Shown: one piece after another, positions 13,677 to 27,445 of the stretch | Layout of the letters: each line of letters starts with the position of its first letter | Numbering within the stretch: the stretch's first letter is position 1 | From: Leucobacter chromiiresistens | GTDB lineage: Bacteria > Actinomycetota > Actinomycetes > Actinomycetales > Microbacteriaceae | Assembly (NCBI RefSeq): GCF_001477055.1 | Contig: NZ_LDRK01000024.1 | Location: 1-50,250, forward strand | DNA length: 50,250 nucleotides | Direction: 5' to 3' | The notes under the pieces: generated by a model | What the model saw: the letters and a program-made list of their open reading frames with translations, nothing else | Database searches by the model: none | What the model was told of the DNA's origin: nothing | Made by a program: the position numbers and the translations under genes

Positions 13677-14246
13677 GTGTCCCAGCCCCACATGCCCGTC
13701 CCGATGCGCGGCGGCTCCGGCGGGGCCGGAGGCGCTCAGCGGGCCTTCCCGAAGGGCACGGTGATCGCGATCGGCGCGATCGTCGGCGTCATCGGAGTGG
13801 GCCTCGTCGTGTGGCCCTTCTTCTCGGCGAGCTGGATCCTCGTGGTGCTCTTCGCCTCGGCCCTCATCGCGAACGGCGCGGTGCTGCTCGCGCGCGGCCG
13901 ATCGATCGGCGGCATTCTGCTCGTCGTCGCGGGGGTCATCGCCCTGGCGTTCACCGGCGCCACCGCACGCGCGCTCGTGAGCTTCGTCGGGTTCGGTCTG
14001 ATCGCGTTCGGCGCACTCTGGCTCGCCGTCGGCCTGCGATTCGCGCGTCACCGGCCGAGCATCGGGATCGTGCCGGGTGCGGTGCTGCTCGCGGGCGGCA
14101 TCCTGGCGCTGCTCTGGCCGGGGGTGGCGCTGTCGATCGCGGCGGTCGTCGCGGGCCTCGTGCTCATCGCCGTCGGCGCAGCGATCATCTGGGGTGCCAC
14201 GCGGCCGCGTCGGGTCGATCCCGGCGCGACGACGATCATCATCTGA
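13677..14246 (+). CDS. HdeD/DUF308-like multi-pass membrane protein
   Basis: The 189-residue protein has about six short transmembrane helices separated by glycines and small turns. It is preceded by a ~25-residue Gly/Pro-rich cytoplasmic start (VSQPHMPVPMRGGSGG). The paired helices with repeated GIL..AGVIAL patterns resemble the HdeD/DUF308 family of small membrane proteins of unclear function. The GTG start at 13677 is supported by a GGAGG about 6 nt upstream. A symmetric TACAGTA at 13600-13606 could serve as -10 box for this gene and, on the other strand, for the glycosylase gene. Confidence 0.7.
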   Translation: MSQPHMPVPMRGGSGGAGGAQRAFPKGTVIAIGAIVGVIGVGLVVWPFFSASWILVVLFASALIANGAVLLARGRSIGGILLVVAGVIALAFTGATARALVSFVGFGLIAFGALWLAVGLRFARHRPSIGIVPGAVLLAGGILALLWPGVALSIAAVVAGLVLIAVGAAIIWGATRPRRVDPGATTIII

Positions 14247-14250
14247 TCCG

Positions 14251-14802
14251 CTACGCGCTCGGCTCCGAGATGCGGTGCTCCACGAGCGCGCCCGACAGGT
14301 TCGTCCCGTTCAGGTCGAGGTACAGCTGGCCCTCGGTGCGCGAGACGGAGAGCGCGTTCCGCCGCTCGAGGGCATCGGCTGCTCCGGCGACGAGGGCCGG
14401 ATCGACCGCGAGGAGCGGAATCTCCGACGCGCGATGGATCGTCTTGCCGCGCCAGTTCGCCAGCACCTTCTCAGGGTCGCGGTGGGTGTACACGACGGCG
14501 CGCTCCGCGGACTTGCTCCCGGAGTGCAGACGGGCGGCATCGGGGGCTCCGACCTCGATCCACGCCGAGAGCGAGCCGGTGAGATCGCGCACCATCACGG
14601 CGGGTTCATCGACCGTCGACACGCCGCCGCCGAACACGACGCCCTCGGTGTACTCGAGGCAAAAGGCGAGCACCCGCGTGACCATGAAGGGGGCCGTTTC
14701 GGAGGGGTGCCGGGCGACACGCAGCGTGAATTGCTCGTACACGCCGCGATCCACGTCGGCCAGGTCCACTTCGAAGGTGTGCATCGTCGATCCCATTGCC
14801 AT
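14251..14802 (-). CDS. YaeQ family protein
   Basis: The 183-residue product aligns in pattern with YaeQ, a small protein with a PD-(D/E)XK-nuclease-like fold whose cellular role is unsettled. Recognisable blocks are FEVDLADVDRGVYEQF at the N-terminus, RVLAFCLEYTEGVVF, and SAWIEVGAPDAARLHSGSK. The latter two contain the acidic and lysine residues of the fold. The frame extends 22 codons upstream into the ligD end. The ATG at 14802 is chosen to match the family start. It lies 11 nt after the ligD stop on the same strand, so readthrough from ligD is likely. Confidence 0.82.
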   Translation of the reverse strand: MAMGSTMHTFEVDLADVDRGVYEQFTLRVARHPSETAPFMVTRVLAFCLEYTEGVVFGGGVSTVDEPAVMVRDLTGSLSAWIEVGAPDAARLHSGSKSAERAVVYTHRDPEKVLANWRGKTIHRASEIPLLAVDPALVAGAADALERRNALSVSRTEGQLYLDLNGTNLSGALVEHRISEPSA

Positions 14803-14813
14803 GATGCACGAGT

Positions 14814-17435
14814 CTACGGCCCCCCGAGGAACTCGGAGACCTCCCGGTCGGGCCGCCATCCCCGCCACGCCGCGTGCCGGAGCCGCCCCTCCGGCGTGCG
14901 CTCGCGGAACGTCACCTCGCCCACGCGGCGCGGTGCGACCCAGTGCGCCTCGCGCCGGGCCTCGCTCGGCACGTCGACGGCCGGCTCCGGCCGCTCGTCA
15001 GCGGCGAGCAGGCGCCGCACGCGTCGCCGTACCGACGCAGTGAATCCGCTCGCGACGCGGCCGCCGTAGCGCAGTCCGTGCGCTCCGGGGATCGCGATGA
15101 GCAACGACGCGAACCCAGCCGGGTCGGCCTCGCTCTCCCGCCACCCGATCACCACCGCCTCAGTCGTCTCGGCGAGCGGCACCTTCAGCCAGTCCCGCGA
15201 ACGCGTGTCGGCTCGGTACGGGCTCGTGCGACGCTTCGCGACCACCCCCTCGAGGCCGAGCTCGCGGCTCGCCTCGAGTGCGGCTGCGGCGTCGCCCTCG
15301 AATGCCGGCGGCACCGCTACCGCGCGCCGCCCGGCGGCGGCTCCGTCGTCAGCGCCGCCGCCTGCTGCGCCGCTCCCGTCGTCGCTGTCGTCGCCGTCGT
15401 CGCTGTCGTCGAAGCTCTCGAGCAGCAGCTCGCGTCTCGCGTCGTAGGGCAGCGCGCGGCAGTCGGTGCCGTTGAGTGCGAGCACGTCGAAGGCGAAGAA
15501 GCGCACCGGGGTCGATCGCCGAGCGCGCGCGACCTCGCGAGCACCGGTGAGGCCCATGCGATCCTGCAGCCGCGAGAAGCTGGGGGTGCCGCCGGGCCCG
15601 AGCGCCACGATCTCGCCGTCGAGCACCGCGGAGTCGGCGACGACCGCCTGCGCTGTCTCGCGCAGCTCGGGGAAGCTCGCGGTGACGTCGCGCCCCGACC
15701 GGCTGGTGACCGTCACGCGGTCGCCGTCGAGCGCGACGATCGCGCGCATGCCGTCCCACTTCATCTCGAACGACCAGTCGCCGGCGTCGAGGTGCTCGAG
15801 GGCGGCCGCGGAGGATCGCGTCGCGAGCATGGGCCGCACGGCGTCGGGCAGCGGCTCGCCGGGCGACCTCTGCCCGGCGCGGGCTCCCGTCGACGCCGTC
15901 GGCTGCTCGGCCCCGTCGTGGAGCTCGGCCTGGTCGGCCCGGTCTGCCCGGTCCGCCCGGTCTGCCTTGAGGTGGATCATCCACTGCGGCGGATCCTCCT
16001 GCGTGCGGAAGAGCACGTAGGTGCGGGTGCCGCCGATGCCGCCGTCGACGGTGCCGGTGAGCGTCGCGATCACCTCGTCGTCGCGCCACTTCTCGAGTGC
16101 GAAGGTACCGGCATCCCAGATGCGCACGGTGCCCGCGCCGTACTCGCCCTTCGGGATCTCGCCCTCGAAGGTGCGGTACTCCATCGGATGATCCTCGGTG
16201 GGCACCGCGAGGTGATTGCGACGGGGATCGGTCGGCACCCCCTTCGGGAGCGCCCAGCTGACGAGCACCCCGTCGTGCTCGAGTCGGAAGTCGAAGTGCA
16301 GGCGGCGGGCCTCGTGCCGCTGGATCACGAACACGGGGGCCGTCGTCGCGTCGCCGTCGTGCGCGGCGTCCGCACGCCCGCGAGCCGCGGCGCCTCGCAG
16401 CCCGCCGGAGCGCCGGTGCGCCTCGGGCACCGGCTCGGGGGTGCGCCGCGCATCGCGCTTCGAGCGGTACACCTCCAGGCGCTCCGACGTGCGCGCGGCC
16501 GCACTCTCGCGGGTCAGCTCGGCCAGCGGATCGCCGCGATGCTCGACGCGCTCCAGCACCTCGCGGAACTCGAGGTGGCGCAGGTGCGGGGAGGCGAGCT
16601 CGCGCCAGGTGCGCGGCGCCGCAACGGTCGGACGCGCGCGACCGCGGAGCGAGTAGGGTGCGATCGTGGTCTTGCTGCCGTTGTTCTGGCTCCAGTCGAT
16701 GAAGACCTTGCCGGGGCGCAGACTCCGCTGCATGCTGCTGATGATCTCGTCGGGGTGATCCTGCTCCAACGCGCGGGCGAGCTCGCGCGCGACCGCGGAG
16801 ACCTGCTCGGACGACTGCCCGCCGTCGAGCGGGGCGTAGACGTGGATGCCCGCACTGCCGCTCGTCACCGGTACGGAGTCGAGGCCCATGCCGTCGAGGA
16901 GGTCGCGGACGAGGAAGGCGACGCGCGCGCACTGCCGCAGGTCGACCCCGGGGCCCGGATCGAGGTCGAGCACGAGGCGATCCGGCGCCCGTCTCGGATC
17001 TGCCGCCCCCGCGACCCCGCCGTGCTCGCCCGGCGGTTCGGGCGCCCCCCGATCGAACCGCCACTGCGGCACATGGATCTCGAGCGCCGCGAGCTGCGTG
17101 AGCCAGACGAGCGTCGACTCGTCGTTCACCATCGGGTACGCGTTGAGATGGTCGCGGTGGGCGATGCGACCGCGGGCGACCCATGACGGGGCATCATCTC
17201 CGATGTCCTTCTGGAAGAAGCTCGGGCCCTCGCCGTTCTCGCCCACGCCGTCGGGCCAGCGCTTGCGCGTGGCGGCGCGGTCGCGGCAGTGGGGGAGCAT
17301 GGTGTCGGCGATGGCACTCACGTAGCCGAGCACCTCGCCCTTCGTCGTTCCGGTTGCGGGGTACAGCACCTTGTCGAGGTTCGACAAACGGATGGCGCGC
17401 CCGTCGATGCGCACCGTGTGCTGTGCACCGGCCAT
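14814..17435 (-). CDS. ligD: Multifunctional NHEJ ligase LigD (polymerase-phosphoesterase-ligase)
   Basis: LigD is the bacterial non-homologous end-joining enzyme. Three domains are visible in the mycobacterial order. The primase-type polymerase is at about residues 5-300 with DLDPGPG at 157-163. The 3'-phosphoesterase is at about 365-490 (RHEARRLHFDFRLEHDG, GEIPKGEYGAG). The ATP-dependent ligase is at about 530-870, with the adenylated lysine K559 in EMKWDG and the nucleotidyl-transferase motifs DGEIV and EGVVAKR. The frame stays open across ku, but the ATG at 17435 gives the family start. Two 9-bp tandem repeats expand linkers inside the gene. It is divergent from ku by 69 bp. Confidence 0.95.
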   Translation of the reverse strand: MAGAQHTVRIDGRAIRLSNLDKVLYPATGTTKGEVLGYVSAIADTMLPHCRDRAATRKRWPDGVGENGEGPSFFQKDIGDDAPSWVARGRIAHRDHLNAYPMVNDESTLVWLTQLAALEIHVPQWRFDRGAPEPPGEHGGVAGAADPRRAPDRLVLDLDPGPGVDLRQCARVAFLVRDLLDGMGLDSVPVTSGSAGIHVYAPLDGGQSSEQVSAVARELARALEQDHPDEIISSMQRSLRPGKVFIDWSQNNGSKTTIAPYSLRGRARPTVAAPRTWRELASPHLRHLEFREVLERVEHRGDPLAELTRESAAARTSERLEVYRSKRDARRTPEPVPEAHRRSGGLRGAAARGRADAAHDGDATTAPVFVIQRHEARRLHFDFRLEHDGVLVSWALPKGVPTDPRRNHLAVPTEDHPMEYRTFEGEIPKGEYGAGTVRIWDAGTFALEKWRDDEVIATLTGTVDGGIGGTRTYVLFRTQEDPPQWMIHLKADRADRADRADQAELHDGAEQPTASTGARAGQRSPGEPLPDAVRPMLATRSSAAALEHLDAGDWSFEMKWDGMRAIVALDGDRVTVTSRSGRDVTASFPELRETAQAVVADSAVLDGEIVALGPGGTPSFSRLQDRMGLTGAREVARARRSTPVRFFAFDVLALNGTDCRALPYDARRELLLESFDDSDDGDDSDDGSGAAGGGADDGAAAGRRAVAVPPAFEGDAAAALEASRELGLEGVVAKRRTSPYRADTRSRDWLKVPLAETTEAVVIGWRESEADPAGFASLLIAIPGAHGLRYGGRVASGFTASVRRRVRRLLAADERPEPAVDVPSEARREAHWVAPRRVGEVTFRERTPEGRLRHAAWRGWRPDREVSEFLGGP
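15378..15413. repeat. 9-bp tandem repeat inside ligD encoding a DDSDDG tract
   Basis: Four tandem units of GTCGTCGCT/GTCGTCGCC/GTCGTCGAA occupy 15378-15413 on the plus strand. On the minus strand they encode an acidic DDSDDGDDSDDG tract at about LigD residues 676-687, inside the ligase domain. Confidence 0.8.
15932..15966. repeat. 9-bp tandem repeat inside ligD encoding (RAD)n
   Basis: Nearly four units of GGTCNGCCC run from 15932 to 15966. They encode RADRADRADQ in the linker between the phosphoesterase and ligase domains, near LigD residues 492-502. Confidence 0.8.
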
Positions 17436-22806: not shown

Positions 22807-23364
22807 TCACGCGCCCGATGCGCCACCGGTCGGCGGCGCGTCAGCACCGCTTCTGAGCGCGGCGTCGATCTCGCCCATCACCTGCGCGAGGCGCGTGCGC
22901 CCCTCCGGCGCGGGCGGATACCGGCGCAGGATCGCCGGTACCGGCTCCTCGGCGAGGGCGATCAGGGCGCGCACCTCGCTCCCGGGCTCAGCTCCCGGGC
23001 GCGACTCGTGCACGATCGCGGCGCACGCCGCGGCGCGCAGGATGTGGCCGACCTGCGACGCCCGCGCGATCGGATGGAGATAGGCCGCGGCCGCCGCGTC
23101 GCCGCAGGCGAGCGCCGCCAGCCGAGCTCGCTCGTCCGGGGCCTCCCGAGCAGCGCGGTGCGCCGCGAACGCCGCGGTGCGCTGCCGATTCGAGCGGGGA
23201 GCGCCCTCCGCGAAGACGCGCGCCGCGTCGAGCGCCTCCCGCGGTCGCGAGTCGTGCGGCGCGACGGCCTCGAAGTCGGGCAGCACGCGCGACGCGCACG
23301 AAGCGGCGAACCGGGCCACCGCGCGCAGCTCCTCGGGAGCGAGCACGAAGTCGTCTGCAGCCAT
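22807..23364 (-). CDS. Imm-5-like putative immunity-type protein
   Basis: The 185-residue alpha-helical protein resembles a widespread actinobacterial family labelled putative immunity protein (Imm-5-like). Conserved-looking blocks are LAPEELRAVARFAASCA, RPREALDAARVFAEGAPR, AHRAAREAP, and AAAAYLHPIARASQVGHILRAA. The family function is unverified, and no toxin gene is next to it, so immunity against a polymorphic toxin is only a name here. The ATG at 23364 (MAADDF) fits the start; an upstream ATG at 23409 would add a basic 15-residue stretch. It is convergent with the TetR gene. Confidence 0.65.
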   Translation of the reverse strand: MAADDFVLAPEELRAVARFAASCASRVLPDFEAVAPHDSRPREALDAARVFAEGAPRSNRQRTAAFAAHRAAREAPDERARLAALACGDAAAAAYLHPIARASQVGHILRAAACAAIVHESRPGAEPGSEVRALIALAEEPVPAILRRYPPAPEGRTRLAQVMGEIDAALRSGADAPPTGGASGA

Positions 23365-23458
23365 AGCGCTATTCTCGGCCACGGCTCGCGGTGAGCGCCA
23401 GCCGTACACCCCGGAGCGGGCCCGCCGCCACCCCGTGAGGCGGACGCCATGCGCCGCC

Positions 23459-23464
23459 TATGAT
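23459..23464 (+). promoter_or_regulatory. -10 box of the partner-switch operon
   Basis: TATGAT matches the -10 consensus and would start transcription near 23471. This lies after the first in-frame ATGs at 23460/23463, which supports translation from 23502. Confidence 0.5.
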
Positions 23465-23501
23465 GAAGGAACTTGGTCGAGAGGGCGGCGGAGGAGGAAG
23501 C

Positions 23502-24656
23502 ATGTTCACGGAGGAACGACGACTCGCAGCGCTCGAAGAGATGGGTGTGCTCGACACGCCCCCCGATGAGCGCGTGGACCGGGTGGCGCGGCTCGCGAAG
23601 GAGATGTTCGGCGTGCCGATGGTGAGCGTCTCGCTCGTCGACCGCGACCGCCAGTGGCGCAAATCCCAGATCGGTCTCGGCGCGGCCGAGGCTCCGCGCG
23701 AAGATTCGTTCTGCGACTACACGGTGCGTCAGAACCGCATGGTCGTCGTCGAAGACGCGAGCGCGGCGGAGGAGTTCGCCGACAACCCGTTCGTCGCGGG
23801 CGATCCGCACCTGCGGTTCTACGCGGGGCATCCGCTCTACGCGCCGGGCGGAGAGCCGGTGGGCACCCTCTGCGTGATCGACACGCAGCCGCGCGATTTC
23901 ACCGAGAGCCAGAGCGCGCTGCTGCGCGACCTCGCCGGATGGGTGCAGGCGGAACTCACGCGTGACGACGAACTCGACCACGCGGCGATCATCCAGCGCG
24001 CGCTCGAGCCCAAGCGGCTGCCCCGCGTGCCCGGACTCGAGATCGCCGCTGCCGCCGTCGCGCGAGGCCACCTGTCGGGCGACTTCTACGATCTCATGCC
24101 GCGGGAGGGCACGCTGCGGTTGACCCTGGCCGACGCCATGGGCAAGGGCGCCGGCCCGGCGATCGTCGCCGCGGGCGTGCGCGCCGCGCTGCGCACGGCC
24201 CCCGAGCGCGGGATCGCCGCGGCCATGGCCGGCGCCGACCGCCTCGTCGAAGAGGATCTCGGCGATACCGGCATGTTCGTCACCGCCGTGCACGCCGACA
24301 TCGACACCCGCACCGGGGCGATCGATCTCGTCGACGCCGGGCACGGTCTCGGCCTCGTGGTGCGCGCCGACGGCACCTGGGAGCACCTCCGCTCGGCCGG
24401 CCTGCCCCTCGGCATGGGCTTCGGCGATGAGGCCGAGCGCGAGCCGGTGCACACGGTGCTCGCGCCGGGCGACTGCTTCGCCTGCAGCAGCGACGGACTG
24501 CTCGATGTGCTCGACCCGGAGGCTCCGTTCGCGCAGTTCGCCCACATCGTCGGCGAGCACGGACCCGAGGGCGCGGTGCGCGCCGTACTCGACCTCGCGC
24601 GCGACGCGAAGGCGTCGGACGACATCACGGTGCTCGTCGTCAGGCGCACGGCATGA
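23502..24656 (+). CDS. GAF-PP2C serine phosphatase (RsbU-like)
   Basis: The 384-residue protein has a GAF sensor domain (about residues 18-150, with VSVSLVDRDRQW and REDSFCDYTV) and a SpoIIE-type PP2C phosphatase (about 180-384). PP2C metal ligands are visible in SGDFYD (D194, D197), LADAMGKG (D211), SSDGLLD (D331) and SDDITVL (D373-D374). RsbU/SpoIIE proteins dephosphorylate STAS antagonists, and a STAS gene lies two genes downstream. The ATG at 23502 follows GGAGGAGG. The -10 box at 23459 argues against the earlier ATGs. The gene starts a four-gene operon and overlaps the glycosyltransferase by ATGA. Confidence 0.9.
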   Translation: MFTEERRLAALEEMGVLDTPPDERVDRVARLAKEMFGVPMVSVSLVDRDRQWRKSQIGLGAAEAPREDSFCDYTVRQNRMVVVEDASAAEEFADNPFVAGDPHLRFYAGHPLYAPGGEPVGTLCVIDTQPRDFTESQSALLRDLAGWVQAELTRDDELDHAAIIQRALEPKRLPRVPGLEIAAAAVARGHLSGDFYDLMPREGTLRLTLADAMGKGAGPAIVAAGVRAALRTAPERGIAAAMAGADRLVEEDLGDTGMFVTAVHADIDTRTGAIDLVDAGHGLGLVVRADGTWEHLRSAGLPLGMGFGDEAEREPVHTVLAPGDCFACSSDGLLDVLDPEAPFAQFAHIVGEHGPEGAVRAVLDLARDAKASDDITVLVVRRTA

Positions 24657-26614
24657 CCGCCCGCTTCGCCGCCATTCGCATCCTCGCCGTGCTCTCGGTG
24701 CTGCTCGGCACGAACTACGTGGTGTGGCGCTGGCTCGACTCGATCAACTGGGCAGCCTGGTGGATCGCCGTGCCGCTCGTCATCGCCGAGACCTACAGCC
24801 TCATCGACACCTGGTTCTTCTGCCTGACGATGTGGCGGGCGCGTGAGCGGCCGGGCCCGGCCTCGCCGCCGCAGGGAACGGTCGACGTGCTGATCACGAC
24901 CTACAACGAGCCGATCGAGCTCGTCATGGAGACCGCGCTCGCCGCGCAGCGGATCGCCTATCCGCACGAGACCTGGATCCTCGACGACGGCGGGCGCGCC
25001 GACGTCGAGCGGGCGGCCCGCGAGGCGGGCATCGGCTACCTCACCCGCTCCGACGACTGGACGGGCAAGCCGCGGCACGCGAAGGCGGGCAACCTCAACA
25101 ACGCCCTCTTCCAGACCGACGGCGAGTTCCTGCTCATCCTCGACGCCGACCAGATTCCCGACCCGCTGATCCTCCACCGCACGCTCGGCTATTTCGCCGA
25201 TGACCCCGAGGTCGCGCTCGTGCAGACGCCGCAGTGGTTCTCGAACGTGGACGAGGCGGATCCGCTCGGCAGTCAGGCGCCGCTGTTCTACGGACCGATC
25301 CAGCAGGGCAAGGACGGCTGGAACGCGGCCTTCTTCTGCGGGTCGAACGCGGTGCTGCGGCGCGAGGCGCTCATGCAGCTCGGCATCGTCGGCTACGTGC
25401 GCGATATCGCCACGTCGACGAAGCGTGCGTTGCGCGTCGCCGAATCGCTCATCAGTCGCGAAGCCCGGCGCGCAGAGGACGCGGCGCTCGCGGCCGAACT
25501 CGTGGGTCTGCGCACCGCGATCCGGAGCGCGCGAGACGACATCGCCGCCGGCTCGCCCATCGCCGATGCGACCTTCGCGGTGCGCGACGCGGTGGATCGG
25601 GCCGCCCGCGCGCTCGTCGCCGACGATGTCGCCGCCATGCGCGCCGACCTCGAGATCATCGCCTCGGTGCCGATCGAGCGCGACGCGGAGCTCGACGGGG
25701 TCGTCGTCGACGAGGTGCGCCTCGACCGCCTGGCGACCGCCGAGCTCTCGCCGCTCGGCGCCGTCGAAGCCGTGCGCGGGCTGCTCGACGCGCTCCGCAT
25801 CGACCGCGGTCACGAGGCGCAGCCGCTGCAGCCGCTCGCGACGATCTCGGTGACCGAGGACATGGCGACGGCGATGCACCTGCACGCCCTCGGCTGGCGG
25901 AGCGTCTACCACCACGAGATTCTCGCGCGCGGCCTCGCCCCGGAGGATCTGCGGACCATGCTCACGCAGCGACTGCGCTGGGCGCAGGGCACCCTGCAGG
26001 TGATGCTGCGCGACAACCCGCTCGTCAAGCGCGGGTTGTCGGCCGGCCAGCGGCTGATGTACTTCGCCACCATGTGGAGCTACCTCTCCGGGTTCACGGC
26101 CGTCGTCTATCTGGCGGCGCCCGTCATCTACCTCGTCTTCGGCGTGATGCCGGTCACGGCGTGGAGCGTCGACTTCTTCGCCCGCTTCCTCCCGTACTTC
26201 CTCGTCAATCAGGCGCTCTTCCTCGTCGTCGCCCGCGGCATGCGCACGTGGCGCGGGCAGCAGTACTCGCTCGCGCTCTTCCCCGTCTGGATCCGTGCGT
26301 GCTGCACGGCGCTCGCGAACGTGTGGTTCGGCCGGTCGCTGAGCTTCGCCGTCACCCGCAAGGACGGGCGCGACCCCAGAGGGGTGCCGTGGCGGGAGAT
26401 CTGGCCTCAGCTGACCGCCATGGCGGTGCTCGCGGTCGGGCTGATCCTCGGCCTCGTGCGACTCGGCATCGGCACGGCCGACGGCACCGGCACGCTCGTC
26501 AACACCGCCTGGGTACTCTACGACCTCGTCGTGCTCAGCGTCATCATCCAAGCCGCCCGCTACCGCGGGCCGGCAAACAGACCCGTCGACACGACCCCTG
26601 AAGGAGCGGCATGA
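24653..26614 (+). CDS. Cellulose-synthase-like family 2 glycosyltransferase with large insert
   Basis: This 653-residue membrane enzyme has the BcsA-type processive GT2 plan. Two N-terminal TM helices (about 8-25, 36-60) come first. The GT-A domain carries LDDGG (110-114), DAD (164-166), FFCGSNAVLRR (227-237), TED (401-403) and QRLRW (439-443). Four or more C-terminal TM helices follow. All catalytic motifs are intact, so it should polymerise a nucleotide-sugar into a beta-glycan across the membrane. A helical insert of about 150 residues (247-397) lies between the acceptor segment and TED, which are normally only ~10-15 residues apart. No PilZ domain is present. It is flanked by ATGA overlaps to the phosphatase and STAS genes. 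Confidence 0.9.
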   Translation: MTARFAAIRILAVLSVLLGTNYVVWRWLDSINWAAWWIAVPLVIAETYSLIDTWFFCLTMWRARERPGPASPPQGTVDVLITTYNEPIELVMETALAAQRIAYPHETWILDDGGRADVERAAREAGIGYLTRSDDWTGKPRHAKAGNLNNALFQTDGEFLLILDADQIPDPLILHRTLGYFADDPEVALVQTPQWFSNVDEADPLGSQAPLFYGPIQQGKDGWNAAFFCGSNAVLRREALMQLGIVGYVRDIATSTKRALRVAESLISREARRAEDAALAAELVGLRTAIRSARDDIAAGSPIADATFAVRDAVDRAARALVADDVAAMRADLEIIASVPIERDAELDGVVVDEVRLDRLATAELSPLGAVEAVRGLLDALRIDRGHEAQPLQPLATISVTEDMATAMHLHALGWRSVYHHEILARGLAPEDLRTMLTQRLRWAQGTLQVMLRDNPLVKRGLSAGQRLMYFATMWSYLSGFTAVVYLAAPVIYLVFGVMPVTAWSVDFFARFLPYFLVNQALFLVVARGMRTWRGQQYSLALFPVWIRACCTALANVWFGRSLSFAVTRKDGRDPRGVPWREIWPQLTAMAVLAVGLILGLVRLGIGTADGTGTLVNTAWVLYDLVVLSVIIQAARYRGPANRPVDTTPEGAA

Positions 26615-26943
26615 ATCTCGCAACGACCGAACACGGCGACTACACGGTGATCTCGATCACGGGGCGTCTCACGGCGACCGGAGCGCCGCTGCTGCGCAAC
26701 GCGGTGAGCGATCTCGTCGATTCCGGTACCGCCCGCATCGTGGTCGACCTCGCGCACACCGAGTTCGTCGACTCGTCGGGCCTCGGCGCGCTCATCGGCG
26801 GCCTCAAGCGCGCGCGGGTCGCGGGCGGTGATCTGCGGATCGCCGCGGTTCCGGAGCAGGTGCACGCCGTGCTGCGGCTCACGAACCTCGATCGGGTGCT
26901 CAGCCTCCACTCGACGCCGGAGACGGCGTTCGATGGGCGCTGA
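26611..26943 (+). CDS. STAS-domain anti-sigma factor antagonist
   Basis: The 110-residue protein is a single STAS domain like SpoIIAA/RsbV. The phosphorylatable serine is S55 in FVDSSGLGAL, aligned with SpoIIAA S58, and ISITGRLTATGAPLLR is the first strand-helix unit. In known systems the unphosphorylated form sequesters the RsbW/SpoIIAB kinase; the kinase gene is immediately downstream with an 11-nt overlap. The start overlaps the glycosyltransferase stop (ATGA). The protein is full length, with no membrane segment. Confidence 0.92.
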   Translation: MNLATTEHGDYTVISITGRLTATGAPLLRNAVSDLVDSGTARIVVDLAHTEFVDSSGLGALIGGLKRARVAGGDLRIAAVPEQVHAVLRLTNLDRVLSLHSTPETAFDGR

Positions 26944-27445
26944 GCAGCCGGATGGCGGCGGGCCCGGCCTCGACATCAGGGGCCGCGCCGAGCTCGCGTT
27001 CGTCGAACGCGCGCTCGACGAGCTCGACGCATTCTGGGAGGGGCGCAGTCACGCCGTCGAGCCGCTCGATCGGACCCTGTTCACGCTCGCGATCAGCGAG
27101 GTGCTGACGAACATCGTGCAGCACGGAGCAGCGGGCGGGAGCGCGGCACCGTCGACGGGCGAGGGCGAGGGCGAGGGCGCGGGTGCGGGTGCGGCGGCCG
27201 GGCCGGTGGAGATCCGCATGACGATCTCGGCGAGCCGCGATGAGCTGCGAGTTGTGATCGCCGACACGGCTCCGCCCGCCGGCATCGACTGGGACGCGGT
27301 GGCGATGCCCGACGCCGACGCGGAATCCGGCCGGGGTCTCGCGCTCGCGCGGTCGTCGCTCGATGAGTTCGCACACGCGAGCGAGGACGGCGGCAACACG
27401 TGGACTCTGAGCCGCCGCATCGCGAGGGTCGACTCGGGGGAGTGA
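26933..27445 (+). CDS. RsbW/SpoIIAB-like serine kinase with Gly/Glu insert
   Basis: The 170-residue GHKL ATPase has the N-box SEVLTNIVQHG (E56, N60), the D111 region (VIADTAPPAG) and the G-rich ESGRGLALARS (G133, G135), all intact. In the known paradigm it phosphorylates the STAS partner and sequesters a sigma factor. No sigma gene lies in this window, so the output may be different. A 25-residue low-complexity insert, AAGGSAAPSTGEGEGEGAGA and onward (residues 66-90), sits right after the N-box, near the ATP lid. The ATG at 26933 lies inside the STAS gene end, so translation is coupled. Confidence 0.88.
   Translation: MGAEQPDGGGPGLDIRGRAELAFVERALDELDAFWEGRSHAVEPLDRTLFTLAISEVLTNIVQHGAAGGSAAPSTGEGEGEGAGAGAAAGPVEIRMTISASRDELRVVIADTAPPAGIDWDAVAMPDADAESGRGLALARSSLDEFAHASEDGGNTWTLSRRIARVDSGE

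Follow-up and report, generated by a model that had tools for sequence, protein, structure and literature searches.

Partner switches made of a PP2C-type phosphatase, a STAS protein and an RsbW-like kinase are normally used to turn genes on by releasing a sigma factor, as in RsbU-RsbV-RsbW with sigma-B and SpoIIAA-SpoIIAB with sigma-F. A partner-switch-type module of Pseudomonas aeruginosa, SiaABCD, in which SiaA is the phosphatase and SiaB the kinase, acts directly on an enzyme. The diguanylate cyclase SiaD is activated there by SiaC, which binds to the stalk of the enzyme (PMC8457831). Phosphatase, kinase and STAS proteins also govern biofilm or motility and polysaccharide traits without a demonstrated sigma target, as in SypE-SypA of Vibrio fischeri and HmpUVW of Nostoc punctiforme, and unphosphorylated SypA is given as the active form, with an unknown target (PMC8256260, PMC4517449). 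A review describes several STAS proteins whose target is unknown, some tied to polysaccharide or biofilm traits (PMC8256260), and partner switches directed at enzymes or at unknown targets have already been described (PMC8256260, PMC3999984). We analyzed a 50,250-nucleotide stretch of DNA from Leucobacter chromiiresistens (hereafter, the window; bases 1-50250 of contig C112 in a 2.79-Mb draft genome that is 94% complete) and found at 23502-27445 a four-gene operon in which such a switch is packed with a BcsA-like glycosyltransferase family 2 (GT2) synthase. Both the synthase family and the proteins of the switch are known already; no description of such a switch together with a BcsA-like synthase of its own was found in a literature search by title and start of abstract, with most subscription papers outside its coverage. 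The genes can be read directly in the DNA, and from them we infer that the partner switch probably controls the co-encoded synthase post-translationally. A switch normally used to turn genes on may thus control an enzyme itself rather than gene expression.

The four genes lie on the plus strand and overlap by ATGA, ATGA and 11 nucleotides. The frames and translations were reread, and the coordinates, overlaps and motifs in an initial annotation of this DNA were all borne out. The first gene (23502-24656, plus strand) encodes a 384-residue serine phosphatase of the SpoIIE/RsbU type, recognized by Pfam and by its conserved aspartate columns, with a GAF domain at residues 21-149 (2e-17) and a PP2C domain at residues 202-382 (SpoIIE/PP2C, 1e-32). 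The second (24653-26614, plus strand) encodes a 653-residue BcsA-like processive GT2 synthase without a PilZ domain, which was identified by Pfam (Cellulose_synt, 2e-20; Glycos_transf_2, 1e-15), NCBIfam and alignment to PDB entry 7lby. The third (26611-26943, plus strand) encodes a 110-residue, single-domain STAS protein resembling RsbV and SpoIIAA, with the DSSG motif at residues 54-57 (Pfam STAS, 8e-18); it scored 71 bits against TIGR00377, the anti-sigma factor antagonist superfamily, over a cut-off of 53. The fourth (26933-27445, plus strand) encodes a 170-residue RsbW-like kinase (Pfam HATPase_c_2, 2.5e-12, and comparison with relatives) that carries a Gly/Glu/Ala-rich insertion. The operon thereby shares its protein families and key residues with the sigma-B and sigma-F switches and differs from them in having no adjacent sigma factor of the SigB/F/G type, none being found anywhere in 11 of 18 carrier genomes. 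Compared to SypE-SypA and HmpUVW, for which no enzyme target is named in the accessible portions of the papers cited above, it packs the switch with one synthase gene. In the Sia module the target is a diguanylate cyclase and polysaccharide is reached through cyclic di-GMP (c-di-GMP), whereas the operon described here encodes the synthase itself.

The conservation of this arrangement was assessed with a one-genome-per-species scan that gave 456 GT2 relatives, from which the best 80 were kept, chosen by GT2 likeness. Loci from whole-genome searches were added, and the count, with duplicates, unrelated loci and fragments removed, came to 107 GT2 loci. Phosphatase, GT2, STAS and kinase genes followed one another in one direction in 77 of them; nine had GT2-STAS-kinase without a phosphatase gene directly upstream, four had phosphatase-GT2-STAS with a kinase that our script did not call but that was readable in the frames after the STAS gene or fused to it (L041), and 17 had no adjacent STAS gene. 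A STAS gene directly followed the GT2 gene in 90 of the 107 loci, and a kinase gene came next in all 90 (86 by script and 4 from reading frames), which rules out chance clustering of the four genes. The phosphatase gene was directly upstream in 81 of these 90 loci, and, with script-chosen starts, the gap was zero or less at 73 of 90 GT2-STAS junctions and at 83 of 86 STAS-kinase junctions. The initial annotation had predicted that the same four-gene order, with no adjacent sigma factor, would be conserved across actinobacteria, and this prediction holds for the SigB/F/G type: no such sigma gene was found beside the operon in 82 loci or in the window, and only three RpoD genes and, separately, one weak match (L044, 18 bits) were seen, in a search that did not extend to extracytoplasmic function (ECF) sigma factors.

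By record title, the carrier families include Microbacteriaceae, Micrococcaceae, Brevibacteriaceae, Cellulomonadaceae, Promicromonosporaceae, Propionibacteriaceae, Nocardioidaceae, Intrasporangiaceae, Nocardiaceae, Pseudonocardiaceae and Geodermatophilaceae; a further record, under the title Sphaerisporangium (L065), gave match figures near those of Cellulosimicrobium (L067) and may be misnamed. Carriage of the GT2 gene was patchy: at E<=1e-100 it was detected in 18 of 297 genomes of the order, including that of the window. In the GT2 tree the families are mixed, with Tessaracoccus, Brevibacterium, Nesterenkonia and one Arthrobacter, all with the operon, placed among Microbacteriaceae; 24 of its 56 inner branches are well supported, and several family-mixing forks are weakly supported. 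This mixing of families suggests that the operon is transferred between actinobacteria as a whole unit. Matches were found in 243 plasmid records, all below 60% identity, and among the matches listed were only other GT2s and BcsA. We also searched for a fifth gene, using clusters of at least nine loci built from GC-biased open frames in flanks of unequal length. Beyond clusters on or antisense to the four genes, none stood beside GT2 in more than 12 of 81 loci, so a conserved exporter, BcsB or other fifth gene was rejected. Export, named in the initial annotation as a possible point of action, therefore found no separate support among the neighboring genes. BcsA-type synthases move their own product.

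Individual loci showed rearranged or broken forms. In Microbacterium ureisolvens (L041, 7956-8690) the STAS and kinase sequences share one open frame, either a natural fusion or a sequencing artefact. In a Leucobacter locus (L105, G030:C14, about 13880-14944) a transposase-like sequence, identified by eye, breaks the GT2 gene before residue ~475 while the STAS and kinase genes remain. The GT2 frame of Nesterenkonia haasae (L042, 6001-7968) has an internal stop, from a broken copy or a sequencing error. In two Kocuria/Arthrobacter loci (L083 and L090) the switch genes lie a few kilobases from GT2 on the other strand, the operon being broken and the neighborhood kept, and in L084 the STAS gene alone lies a few kilobases away on the other strand.

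The synthase has all of the BcsA-type motifs DD, DxD, TED and QxxRW, present as DDG from residue 111, DAD from 164, TED from 401 and QRLRW from 439. TED (25853-25861, plus strand) is invariant at T401, E402 and D403 in 66 alignment rows, and FAVTRK (residues 565-570; 26345-26362, plus strand), invariant at F565, V567, T568 and K570 in the same rows, is the counterpart of FxVTxK, the motif named as the BcsA gating loop in the accessible text of PMC6821405. In the alignment, these motifs and the gating loop are shared with E. coli BcsA (7lby), which together with the BcsA of Rhodobacter sphaeroides (4hg6) is among the closest known systems. The GT2 scored 366 bits against the NCBIfam CelA model TIGR03030, under its equivalog cut-off of 699. 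The differences from BcsA are the adjoining partner-switch genes, the lack of a C-terminal PilZ domain (no match in any of the 66 GT2 members scanned) and an insert before TED. E. coli BcsA aligns to GT2 residues 10-244 and 395-632, two blocks separated by a single BcsA residue; the ~150 residues from 245 to 394, between FFCGSN and TED (25385-25834, plus strand), therefore constitute an insert and a candidate regulatory or docking element.

The length of this insert was compared across GT2 proteins. The stretch from CGSN through TED comprises 178 residues in the window and 173-194 in the related GT2s measured, L106-L118 being left out of this one-by-one measurement. Five distant GT2s from this order (L009, L010 and L012-L014) have only 28-29 residues there and had no STAS or kinase gene within flanks of ~1.5 kb; L011, a sixth, is a fragment and too incomplete to be judged. 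A paralogue clade without an adjacent STAS gene (L119, L120, L122 and L123; support 100/100) has a shorter insert, with 132-139 residues from CGSN to TED compared to 172 in the window. Two of the four genomes concerned, G248 and G288, had no operon-like STAS gene at E<=1e-5, and the other two, G118 and G226, also carry the full operon. Conversely, seven full-insert GT2s have no adjacent STAS gene (L076, L079, L083, L084, L090, L098 and L121). The genomes of the first six each hold a cognate STAS gene with an adjoining kinase gene, next to a second GT2 in four of the six, and that of L121 also holds the operon. By correlation, then, the full insert appears to accompany a cognate switch in the genome. 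The insert gave no convincing match to a known fold in Pfam or PDB. In plant cellulose synthases, the class-specific region (CSR) sits between the second and third motifs. The GT2 resembles plant CesA/Csl proteins in having an insertion in its catalytic region; such insertions are thought to affect oligomerisation (PMC6821405, accessible text). The Cellulose_synt model aligns in one stretch with residues 138-574, insert included, and so a distant kinship with plant CesA/Csl is conceivable; the insert profile alone, on the other hand, matched no CesA chain in PDB at E<=1.

Because the synthase lacks PilZ, c-di-GMP appears unlikely as its common control. No GGDEF match at E<=1e-10 was found in 7 of 21 carriers, of which G130, G121, G217 and G243 have the full operon and G030 has the interrupted GT2 gene, with only the short-insert GT2 present in G248 and G288. 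In the window's genome, GGDEF gave four matches. The only recurrent polysaccharide-type genes near GT2 were one or two for GH26-like secreted hydrolases, present in 11 of 81 loci (L063, L072, L076, L079, L081, L083, L084, L090, L091, L092 and L098), six of which have a GT2 without an adjacent STAS gene. Pfam confirmed GH26 in the three loci scanned, each matching only part of the profile. GH26 matches occurred in 13 of 21 carriers versus 2 of 15 non-carriers, where both hits were strong (E ~1e-43 to 1e-47) and of another kind; eight of the carrier matches lie within ~3 kb of GT2, four of these beside short-insert paralogues. None was found in the window or, at E<=1e-5, in any of eight Leucobacter genomes. 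The substrates of GH26 enzymes are mannans and some beta-glucans, and with such genes near GT2 the polymer may reasonably be guessed to be a beta-glucan or mannan.

Judging by their conserved key residues, the switch proteins look functional. Each residue of the STAS motif D54-S55-S56-G57 was kept in 90 of 90 relatives, and E56, N60 of the N-box and G133-R134-G135 of the kinase were each kept in 88 of 88. The phosphatase aspartates were similarly conserved (D194 in 79, D331 in 80, D373 in 80 and D374 in 81 of 81 relatives). The G1 box of the kinase reads D-T-A-P-P, which is atypical, the textbook form in such kinases being DxGxG. The input domain of the phosphatase is exchanged between relatives: it is GAF in the window and in three of the five other phosphatases scanned and a response-regulator receiver in the remaining two (L007 and L081), the receiver being the form in Arthrobacter-type relatives. 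Within the kinase gene, tandem GGGCGA/GGGTGC hexamers at 27157-27194 encode the Gly/Glu/Ala-rich stretch; 82-88 of 88 relatives show a gap at these columns, and the stretch is a possible length-variable site.

Our best explanation, which we hold to be more likely than not, is that the operon is a self-contained module with the synthase as its output. The N-terminal domain of the phosphatase (GAF here, receiver in Arthrobacter-type relatives) would sense a signal and activate the PP2C domain, which would dephosphorylate the STAS protein at the conserved DSSG serine, and the kinase would phosphorylate it back, as family knowledge of this chemistry predicts. The phosphorylation state of the STAS protein would set how much free STAS or free kinase is available and thereby the activity of the membrane synthase. 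Contact would most likely be made at the cytosolic catalytic domain of the GT2, with the 150-residue insert as a candidate docking site; that control works by direct contact at this insert has, in our estimate, somewhat less than an even chance. In this boldest form of the model, an RsbV/RsbW-type switch would act on the clade-specific insert to gate a processive membrane glycan synthase directly, by phosphorylation and independently of c-di-GMP, and the unit would spread horizontally among actinobacteria. The unphosphorylated STAS protein would be the activator, by analogy to SiaC-SiaD, and the partner switch would replace the c-di-GMP/PilZ control of classical BcsA. Direct control is supported by the transferable nature of the unit, by the lack of any other widely conserved partner gene and by carriers that have no SigB/F/G-type sigma factor.

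The initial annotation had reasoned from the absence of a sigma gene in the window. That absence was confirmed for the SigB/F/G and RpoD kinds (ECF not included) but does not extend to the rest of the genome, where a SigB/F/G-type sigma is encoded on contig C140 (223 bits, with a cut-off of 234 and RpoD at ~131). Since a window is not a genome and such a sigma is present in trans, this premise was too weak. We called these sigma factors across 297 genomes of the order with TIGR02980 at E<=1e-50, RpoD giving ~1e-36 to 1e-40. They were absent from 11 of 18 GT2 carriers; nine of the 11 have the adjacent STAS-kinase pair, and the remaining two, G248 and G288, have only the short-insert GT2. The operon is thus kept in genomes without its textbook target and does not generally need a SigB/F/G sigma. 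Four of the sigma-less carriers (G130, G217, G121 and G205) have no HATPase_c_2 match at E<=1e-6 in a frame below 300 residues other than the operon kinase. Among sigma-less non-carriers, 7 of 11 had no small match of this kind and 4 of 11 had some. In two genomes the Leucobacter SigB/F/G-type sigma adjoins a gene that by eye looks heptosyltransferase-like (L100, 4822-5868, and L102, 4924-5856, both minus strand). A second phosphatase-STAS-kinase set without GT2 occurs in one Leucobacter genome (L104, 3001-5084; G028:C5), where the 7 kb examined lacked a SigB/F/G sigma.

Several of our observations weigh against our best explanation. The 80 best loci of the scan were picked by GT2 likeness and are not independent. 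The full-insert GT2s without an adjacent STAS gene belong here, as does the finding that insert length is not sorted by genome alone, two of the four short-insert paralogues sharing a genome with the full operon. The mean column majority of the insert is 57%, compared to 85-88% in the flanking catalytic parts, and the insert could be structural rather than regulatory. Small kinases are not tied to the operon everywhere: additional small HATPase_c_2 proteins occur in the remaining seven sigma-less carriers (the kinase of the operon itself does not reach the E<=1e-6 threshold in G316), and small ones are also present in the four sigma-less non-carriers noted above. Direct control is further weakened by a link at the level of the genus, for in Leucobacter a SigB/F/G sigma was present in 4 of 4 operon carriers versus 3 of 33 others (p = 5e-4 without kinship correction, counting G030 as a carrier despite its interrupted GT2 gene and including three incomplete non-carriers, G002, G007 and G026, that gave no match at all, not even to RpoD). 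A reading of the G016 sigma copy as FliA was rejected, since it scored 221 bits as SigB/F/G and 101 as FliA/WhiG. G000, G016 and G030, each with one such sigma, have no HATPase_c_2 match in a frame below 300 residues apart from the operon kinase, which is thus the only obvious anti-sigma candidate and could also hold that sigma in trans.

The switch might accordingly act in trans, its kinase sequestering a SigB/F/G-type sigma encoded elsewhere, with GT2 merely co-transcribed and perhaps an output of that sigma. The Leucobacter counts, the sigma in the window's own genome and the one-kinase, one-sigma genomes fit this explanation, and rsbV and rsbW of Streptomyces coelicolor are known at loci apart from their sigma (PMC3999984, accessible text). 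We nevertheless consider it unlikely, given the 11 sigma-less carriers and the lack of association in the order as a whole, where the sigma occurs in 7 of 18 GT2 carriers, including the window's genome, versus 68 of 279 non-carriers (p = 0.17). Moreover, none of 83 stretches (82 loci and the window) contained a SigB/F/G sigma, and none of 14 loci around such sigma genes (twelve of ~20 kb and two of ~10 kb; 9.5-20 kb read) contained a STAS, kinase or PP2C gene of the operon kind. A dual output, in which the kinase-STAS pair controls both sigma and synthase where the sigma exists, linking stress transcription to polymer, and only the synthase elsewhere, would accommodate both the genus-level link and the sigma-less carriers, and a second, sigma-directed role in Leucobacter is possible. 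We regard this dual output as quite improbable; in G028 the second phosphatase-STAS-kinase set could serve the sigma instead.

It is also conceivable, at a very low probability, that the switch targets some other, unlinked non-sigma protein and that GT2 is linked to it by chance or through a shared regulon. Sigma-independent STAS proteins with unknown targets do exist (SypA, RbaV and HmpV; PMC8256260, accessible text), and the sigma-less non-carriers G134, G160, G167 and G293 have small RsbW-like kinases of unknown output. However, the GT2-STAS-kinase order is kept across many families, and no other partner gene is widely conserved. If control of the synthase by its own operon's switch is correct, binding by a phospho-switch would be a second control principle for BcsA-like synthases beside c-di-GMP/PilZ, providing phosphorylation-based, c-di-GMP-independent on/off switching of such a synthase in bacteria. 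Dozens of genomes encode the candidate target within the operon itself, and some of them have no SigB/F/G sigma or GGDEF match; the question can therefore be asked with two purified proteins.

The surroundings of the operon were also read. A scan for promoters and terminators gave no promoter-like site and one terminator-like site, inside the GT2 gene, at or below chance. A Shine-Dalgarno-like GGAGGAGG was read in the sequence ahead of the first gene (23490-23497, plus strand), and a second in-frame ATG for the phosphatase gene lies at 23460. The divergent gene upstream (22807-23409, minus strand) matches an Imm5-like putative immunity protein with 62.5 bits.

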